Below, piece after piece: positions 35,122 through 36,495 of a stretch of DNA of 64,000 bases. Position 1 is the stretch's first letter. Each line of letters starts with the position of its first letter. The DNA comes from Mariniphaga sp. (GTDB lineage Bacteria; Bacteroidota; Bacteroidia; Bacteroidales; Prolixibacteraceae), in the NCBI GenBank assembly GCA_019429205.1, contig JAHYIT010000006.1, positions 17,236 to 81,235 of the forward strand, in the 5' to 3' direction. The position numbers were made by a program, and so were the translations under genes. The notes beneath the pieces are model-generated. The model was not told the origin of the DNA and ran no database searches. It saw only the letters and a list, made by a program, of their open reading frames with translations.

Positions 35122-35259
35122 GCTGAAAATTTAGAATTGTAAAAATGGGTGTTTTTATTTTTTGTTCCAAATGAAAAAGAAGGAATATGGAATGGATGCT
35201 AAAGAATTCAATTAAACGATGCTGTAGGATTAATTCACCGGATTTTTAAAAATACATAT

Positions 35260-35376
35260 AATCCGGTTGCAGCAGGTTTGGTGAAAAACCGGGAGGACTG
35301 GCCCGGCATTTGGTACATCGGGTATAACAGGTACATCGGGCGTCCCGGGTGCAGCGGTCTCCGAACCGCTGATTAA
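35260..35376 (+). pseudogene. 3'-end remnant of a RAYT (REP-associated tyrosine transposase)
   Basis: Manual translation NPVAAGLVKNREDWPGIWYIGYNRYIGRPGCSGLRTAD*, matching the C-terminus of the intact RAYT (NPVAAGLVKNREDWSGNWCSGCSGLRTAD*). Confidence 0.8.
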
Positions 35377-35496
35377 AAAAAATGCGCGGTTTGGAAACCA
35401 CGCCACCCAATATGCGCGATTCGACCGCCTGAATGACGCAGTCGGGCAAGGAATCCAATCTAACCAAAATGAGCGGTTCGGAGACCACGCCACCCA
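35350..35496. repeat. REP-like palindrome cluster, left of RAYT
   Basis: AGCGGTCTCCGAACCGCTGATTAAAAA... and AGCGGTTCGGAGACCACGCCACCC units. Confidence 0.75.
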
Positions 35497-35560: not shown

Positions 35561-36388
35561 ATGAAGAAAGAATTTTACCGGTATTTGTTGCCTCATTTTC
35601 AACAACCCGGGCAGGCTTATTTTATTACCTGGAGTTTAAAAGATGCAGTACCAAAAAAAGCATTGAAACGATACAGTGACGAAATGGAGAAGTTACGGTT
35701 GCAGATTAAAAGCTATGGTACAGCGAGCGTCATGGGTCCAGCGGGTGTTGCGGGTGCAGCGGATTCCGATCCGCTGATTAAGAAAATGAGCGGATCGGAA
35801 TCCGCTCCACCCAGAATGAGCGATTCGGAGATCGCTCCACCCAAAATGAGCGGTTCTGCCCCGGATAGCTATCGGGGCGCTCCCCCCGCAGGCGCTCCAC
35901 CCGAACTAAAAAAGCAGTATTATTCGCTTCGAAAAAAATACATAAAAGCGTATGACGAGTTGCTGGATAGCGATAAAAACCCAAAAATCAACCTTTCAAA
36001 ACCTGAGAATTTGCAACCAGTAAAAGAAACCCTGTTGTTCTGGAATGGCAAAAAACTGGAAAACTATGCTTTTTGTATTATGCCAAATCATATACACTGG
36101 GTGTTTCGTGTGTTTGAAAAAGATAAAAAAAATAAACCGGTTTATTTACAGGATATTATGAATTCGGTAAAACGGTTTTCTGCCAATCAGATTAATAAAG
36201 TGGAAAACCGAAAAGGAGCGGTTTGGCAAACCGAGAGTTTCGATACTACCATTCGCGATGAGAAACACTTGCATTATGCCATTGAATACACTTTGAATAA
36301 TCCGGTTGCAGCAGGTTTGGTAAAAAACCGGGAAGACTGGTCGGGAAACTGGTGCAGCGGGTGCAGCGGTCTCCGAACCGCTGATTAA
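35561..36388 (+). CDS. REP-associated tyrosine transposase (RAYT, IS200-like Y1)
   Basis: GQAYFITWSLKDAVP, CIMPNHIHWVFRVF (HxH), GAVWQTESFDTTIRDEKHLHYAIEYTLNNPVAAGLV. Confidence 0.9.
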   Translation: MKKEFYRYLLPHFQQPGQAYFITWSLKDAVPKKALKRYSDEMEKLRLQIKSYGTASVMGPAGVAGAADSDPLIKKMSGSESAPPRMSDSEIAPPKMSGSAPDSYRGAPPAGAPPELKKQYYSLRKKYIKAYDELLDSDKNPKINLSKPENLQPVKETLLFWNGKKLENYAFCIMPNHIHWVFRVFEKDKKNKPVYLQDIMNSVKRFSANQINKVENRKGAVWQTESFDTTIRDEKHLHYAIEYTLNNPVAAGLVKNREDWSGNWCSGCSGLRTAD

Positions 36389-36495
36389 AAATGAGTGGAT
36401 CGACCCCGGATATCTGACGGGTCGCTCCATCCATAATGATCGAATTCCGAACCGCTGATTAAAAAAATGAGCGGTTCGGAGACCGCTCCACCCGA
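36362..36495. repeat. REP-like palindromes, right of RAYT
   Basis: AGCGGTCTCCGAACCGCTGATTAAAAATGAG... and AGCGGTTCGGAGACCGCTCCACCC; arms are reverse complements. Confidence 0.8.

Follow-up and report, generated by a model that had tools for sequence, protein, structure and literature searches.

The closest described systems to the locus reported here are the tnpAREP genes of subclass 2.4, which hold in-frame repetitive extragenic palindromic (REP) sequences in a peripheral variable region, generally between the HuH and Y motifs (Quentin et al. 2018, PMC6006769). In that study, the subclass has a median HuH-Y distance of 88 aa, an insertion region at beta3-alphaC, the motifs NH[IFV]H, WQ and YIxNNP, and a double-foot REP with GT[AG]G at the 5' side and its complement at the 3' side (PMC6006769). 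Intragenic GTAG/CGTC REPs were found in many genes by Di Nocera et al. 2013 (PMC3733652), where some clusters encode 43-82 aa and REP termini give open reading frames (ORFs) their stop codons; the Rickettsia palindromic elements (RPEs), as summarised in the same paper, lie in frame within genes probably encoding functional proteins. Here, a REP-associated tyrosine transposase (RAYT) gene of Mariniphaga sp. (Prolixibacteraceae) was analysed within a 64,000-nt stretch of contig JAHYIT010000006.1 (positions 17,236 to 81,235, assembly GCA_019429205.1), called the window below. The N-terminal linker of this gene consists largely of REP DNA, and the same linker has been colonised by REPs recurrently and in frame across the family, the insertions being tolerated by the protein. 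Coordinates without a contig or locus name are window positions, and all window features are on the + strand.

The RAYT gene occupies 35561..36388 and encodes 275 aa, with NHIH (HuH) at residues 176-179 and a catalytic-type tyrosine at Tyr243; a peptide quoted in an earlier sequence-based note on the window (the original prediction) was located inside this ORF. The protein scored 81.6 bits against NCBIfam NF047646 REP_Tyr_transpos (cut-off 80) and fell narrowly under the cut-off of Pfam PF01797 (21.6 vs 23). Residues N176, H177, H179 and Y243 (window RAYT numbering) do not vary among 36 relatives. Among solved structures, the AlphaFold model matched E. coli TnpAREP 4ER8 best (Foldseek E 9.7e-7), and a weak sequence match placed Tyr243 on the tyrosine of the 4ER8 YxxxNPV motif. 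The protein thus has the Y1 HUH fold of a RAYT, with the HuH motif and the catalytic-type Tyr. The gene is flanked by REP hairpins, and REPs are also dispersed through the genome, which is another feature by which RAYTs are recognised. RAYT genes were found in 40 of the 140 genomes of Prolixibacteraceae and in very few genomes of the order outside the family.

As in subclass 2.4 (Bacteroidetes included), the REPs that flank the gene also occur inside it with the frame intact; unlike the general case in the subclass (PMC6006769), the insert lies upstream of HuH, and the HuH-Y distance (His179 to Tyr243) is 64 residues, a normal-looking spacing, vs the median of 88. The motifs NHIH and WQ are present, with YTLNNP in place of YIxNNP, and the feet of the in-gene REP, GGGTG...CACCC, are similar, not identical, to GT[AG]G/C[TC]AC. 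The N-terminal linker and the HuH-Y region are both occupied by REPs in one gene only (L098) among the surveyed relatives. The REPs described in PMC3733652 likewise lie within ORFs and supply stops, but their targets are mostly unrelated genes, DNA repair genes among them, whereas here the target is the RAYT. 4ER8 is the closest solved structure in fold and in sequence, with HuH and Tyr aligned and 20% identity in the fold alignment, and it is without a REP-encoded loop such as that of the window RAYT. Like the RPEs, as far as they are outlined above, the locus has a palindromic repeat in frame inside a gene. RPEs exceed these REPs in length, are scattered through many genes and are not known to come with a RAYT.

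The extended in-frame linker lies between two helices at 35708..35905 (198 nt, 66 aa) and separates an N-terminal strand-helix part from the remainder of the protein, as delimited by a profile hidden Markov model (HMM) and AlphaFold. Within it, a REP doublet with the feet GGGTG...CACCC was recognised at 35752..35812 from its inverted repeat, a 91-bp dispersed copy and the DNA fold; its 28-nt arms, 35752-35779 and 35785-35812, are 93% complementary, with 5 nt between them. A second right-arm unit of 30 nt follows at 35813..35842 as an in-frame direct repeat of the unit before it (spacing 30), and direct repeats also identified a third, diverged REP-like unit at 35843..35902, with the variant hairpin GCCCCGGATAGCTATCGGGGC and a CACCC foot. 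The 30-nt unit that had been predicted is real, with copies beginning at 35767 and 35797, and the internal GATTAA is indeed read as CTG ATT AAG and gives no stop. Folding of 35744-35846 as single-stranded DNA (ssDNA) gave -37.8 kcal/mol (z = -9.0 vs shuffles), and the transcript hairpin predicted for the in-gene REP reached -85.4 kcal/mol (z -7.0). The REP motif occurs seven times in the window, all at the RAYT locus, and on average 0 times in 100 shuffles; chance similarity was rejected by the shuffle tests of motif, fold and flank.

Genome-wide REP censuses were made with pattern and BLAST searches. In the window's genome (G000), an intergenic copy of the in-gene segment, 91 bp long and 95% identical, was found at G000:C287:28201-28291, and more full or partial copies of the in-gene REP lie on contigs C89, C15, C259, C162 and C77, so that REP units do exist elsewhere in this genome. 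A second RAYT lies on contig G000:C111 (L002) and is 65% identical over its C-terminal part; its linker is short and free of REPs, and the gene is flanked by a different repeat of its own, GGGATCCGCGATTTGCAATCGCGG. The near-identical dispersed copy and the short linker of this paralogue bear out the assignment of the internal segment to REP DNA. The original prediction had equated the in-gene repeat with the hairpin that flanks the gene; this holds for the kind of REP and fails for the variant, the in-gene arms being GGATTCCGATCC / GGATCGGAATCC and the flanking REPs GGTCTCCGAACC, a related but different variant. It had also stated that both arms changed together with pairing preserved, which would suggest compensatory change in place. 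Such co-variation was rejected because the in-gene variant exists elsewhere in the genome (the C287 copy, and shorter copies at C259 and C15), and insertion of a different REP variant explains the arms better than co-mutation of a flanking copy. The gene reads AGA (CCACCC AGA ATG) vs a TAA stop in the equivalent frame of the C287 copy.

Forty-four RAYT genes, the C111 paralogue included, were surveyed with the linker delimited by the profile HMM. Short linkers of 39-45 nt, free of REPs, were found in 15 genes and extended linkers of 54-273 nt in 29; linkers of 45 nt are present in the more distant relatives, namely L117 (another family) and Marinilabilia L054, L055 and L057. The 500 nt on either side of every gene were taken as flank, and each linker was compared with its own flanks and with those of the other genes, against 200 dinucleotide shuffles. 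Similarity to the gene's own flanks exceeded all 200 shuffles for 21/29 extended linkers and 0/15 short ones, and the own flanks ranked first of the 44 flank sets for 15/29 extended linkers. These similarities and the 15 short, REP-free linkers refute an equivalent, REP-unrelated linker in all orthologues. A universal match between linker and flank was rejected as well, L038, L073, L078, L086 and L088 being unlike their own flanks. Mean hairpin z was -3.6 for extended linkers vs -0.1 for short ones, and own-flank REP matches (score at least 16.5) fell in 21 of the 44 linkers and once in the rest of a gene body (L098). A second kind of REP, GTTGGAGTTTCCAACTCC / GACTTTCCAAAGTC, stands at the same site in the clade of L098, L102, L104, L105 and L107; these units form an in-frame array in L104. 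In the single gene L098 (1237-2046), REPs are read in frame not only in the N-terminal linker but also in the HuH-Y loop and in the C-terminal tail. Other in-gene insertions, for which a search had been proposed, are thus found in the linkers of more than 20 relatives and in the HuH-Y loop of L098; the predicted unusualness did not survive this result, nor the in-frame tnpAREP insertions already in PMC6006769.

The length of the linker is a multiple of three in 43 of the 44 genes; the exception, L094 (Tangfeifania), is put out of frame by REPs in this same place. L111 has a stop codon within its linker. L115 and L116 stand outside the 44-gene set: L115 is a pseudogene whose linker holds several REPs, and in L116 (G121:C182) an in-frame REP stands where the linker and the two adjoining helix ends would be, its arrival having cost the gene some of the host coding sequence. 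The frameshift of L094, the stop of L111 and the pseudogene L115 are the broken cases expected under tolerated insertion. In a further RAYT, L106 (G049:C33), the N-terminal part was not found and REPs stand in its place.

The AlphaFold model of the window RAYT, made with a 36-row alignment, has a mean predicted local distance difference test (pLDDT) score of 79.5. The insert spans residues about 50-115; pLDDT is < 50 at residues 65-103, with helix 32-57 before this stretch and helix 114-137 after it. In the model the insert is thus a disordered loop that joins the two helices of a hairpin at its tip, N-terminal to HuH (176-179). Nonsynonymous (dN) and synonymous (dS) divergence were compared for body and linker. 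In most REP-bearing pairs the body dN/dS is about 0.05-0.14 (L084/L099 0.068/0.614; L067/L070 0.069/0.692), the very close pair L075/L079 being an exception (0.015/0.034). In several pairs the linker has dN about equal to dS (0.44/0.44 for L077/window), and in most REP-bearing pairs its dN is higher and its dS lower than those of the body, as read from short, gapped linker alignments. The lower dS could reflect constraint at the DNA level or younger age. By these ratios, the transposase body is under purifying selection and the REP peptide is nearly free to change apart from frame and stops.

A RAYT tree from which the linker was excluded requires 12 changes in REP presence (bootstrap 10-13), and well-supported branches force at least 4 changes of REP state. 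The 45-nt linkers of the more distant relatives suggest that the short linker is the ancestral state. By this tree, one loop of the transposase would have received its own (putative) substrate repeat several times.

The analysis shows the REP identity of the insert, its recurrence, site and frame, the disorder of the loop and the selection on the body. The insert is best explained as the RAYT's own REP DNA in a permissive coding loop, probably placed there by local RAYT-driven insertion and filtered by selection for frame. REPs would gather beside the RAYT gene, inserted nearby by RAYT activity; we infer both the catalysis and its locality. Some of these REPs would enter the RAYT coding sequence and last only at positions that the protein can accommodate: in frame, free of stops and in the end loop of the helical hairpin. 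Later, the body would be kept by purifying selection, and the REP peptide would drift and would lengthen or shorten with the frame preserved; such a peptide could persist beyond its source REP family.

Several observations weigh against this account. No exact empty site and no clean target junction was found among the genes analysed; the REPs of L067 and L116 stand in place of linker or helix residues and are not clean insertions. The internal REPs of L073, L078 and L088 are unlike the flanks, and those of L075 and L079 match them weakly. Gains and losses are poorly separable on the tree, with 16 of the 41 inner branches open. The hairpin type GCGAATTCCGATTCGC of G028, G018 and G004 was found in the RAYT linker (G028:C269:7519-7565; G018:C19:308212-308227; G004:C1:2989695-2989710) and nowhere else in these genomes, of which G004 is a single contig and G028 only 83% complete, and the flanking and dispersed REPs of the three genomes belong to another type. 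The in-gene copy in these genomes has the look of a fossil left by a REP type formerly in use. For this copy and for the internal REPs unlike their flanks, old age, gene conversion or transfer may have played a part as well.

Instead of repeated insertion, a single ancestral linker REP may have been inherited vertically, with repeated overwriting by gene conversion from the flanks or with loss in the short lineages. Gene conversion would also account for the own-flank similarity, nearly all GGGTGC-type linkers read the left arm in one phase (GGT GCG GCG...), and an identical 24-nt left arm is common to G028 and G049 despite distant RAYT bodies. This history is nevertheless judged unlikely, given the 45-nt linkers in all of L117, L054, L055 and L057, which suggest a short ancestor, the different REP kind at the same site in the L098 clade, and the interleaving of short and REP-bearing states on supported branches. 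It is more doubtful that the in-gene REP is a working DNA or RNA part of the RAYT gene, with an old substrate type persisting after the dispersed REPs switched; if this were true, the in-gene fossils would record the REP used by an ancestral transposase. Retention for a function such as autoregulation, with RAYT binding an mRNA or ssDNA hairpin, would agree with the strong predicted transcript hairpin, with the perfect 16-nt complementary arms in G028, where the REP type is absent from the rest of the genome, and with the linker dS below body dS in most compared pairs. The last of these is weak evidence from short, gapped alignments, the REP is lacking in the 15 relatives with short linkers, and the arms have decayed in L078, L088 and L089 while conservation of the body continues, which makes retention for function quite improbable. 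Collapsed or misjoined repeats in a metagenome-assembled genome of 305 contigs can be set aside as an explanation with very little hesitation, since the same architecture is seen in the single-contig G004 and G044 and the 4-contig G070 and since REPs occupy this site in an isolate too, Tangfeifania diversioriginum DSM 27063.

Around the window RAYT, REPs of the GGTCTCCGAACC variant flank the gene on the 5' side at 35347..35495, and 3' flanking REPs lie at 36359..36493, both identified by repeat and motif searches. The first 3' REP (36359-36388) encodes the C-terminal tail of the RAYT, and its GAT TAA, read in another frame than the in-gene copy, gives the RAYT its own stop codon; the RAYT genes of about a dozen relatives likewise terminate in a REP. 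What remains of an older RAYT, the end of its C-terminal coding part continuing into a 3' REP of its own, was found at 35222..35376 as a 66-nt direct repeat, 86% identical to 36297-36362, and as a protein match to query residues 215-275 with a stop. This adjacent upstream remnant, not a REP, accounts for the window RAYT's own body match in the survey. REP copies are concentrated at the RAYT in the window's genome and in G049. A REP also stands right after the stop codon of apparently the same gene at G000:C89:13253-13369 (L009) and in Tangfeifania (L066:2001-2090), which suggests either an old intergenic REP common to both genera or insertion on more than one occasion.

The literature search for other reports of REPs inside RAYTs gave only PMC6006769, and no earlier report of the N-terminal permissive site or of in-gene fossil REPs was found, with the limit that the supplement of PMC6006769 could include cases at this site. 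In outline, the phenomenon is already published, and the window case is a variant of it; the N-terminal site and the in-gene fossils are apparent additions. The RAYT genes of the family constitute a natural insertion-tolerance experiment, in which intact, decayed and gene-killing outcomes stand together across dozens of transposases, and they reveal a second permissive loop, upstream of HuH, beside the one described in 2018. They also show one way in which a palindromic repeat in DNA can turn into part of a protein. Because the in-gene REP is the sole survivor of its type in three genomes, transposase genes may preserve traces of earlier pairings between transposase and repeat and may help to date REP turnover.
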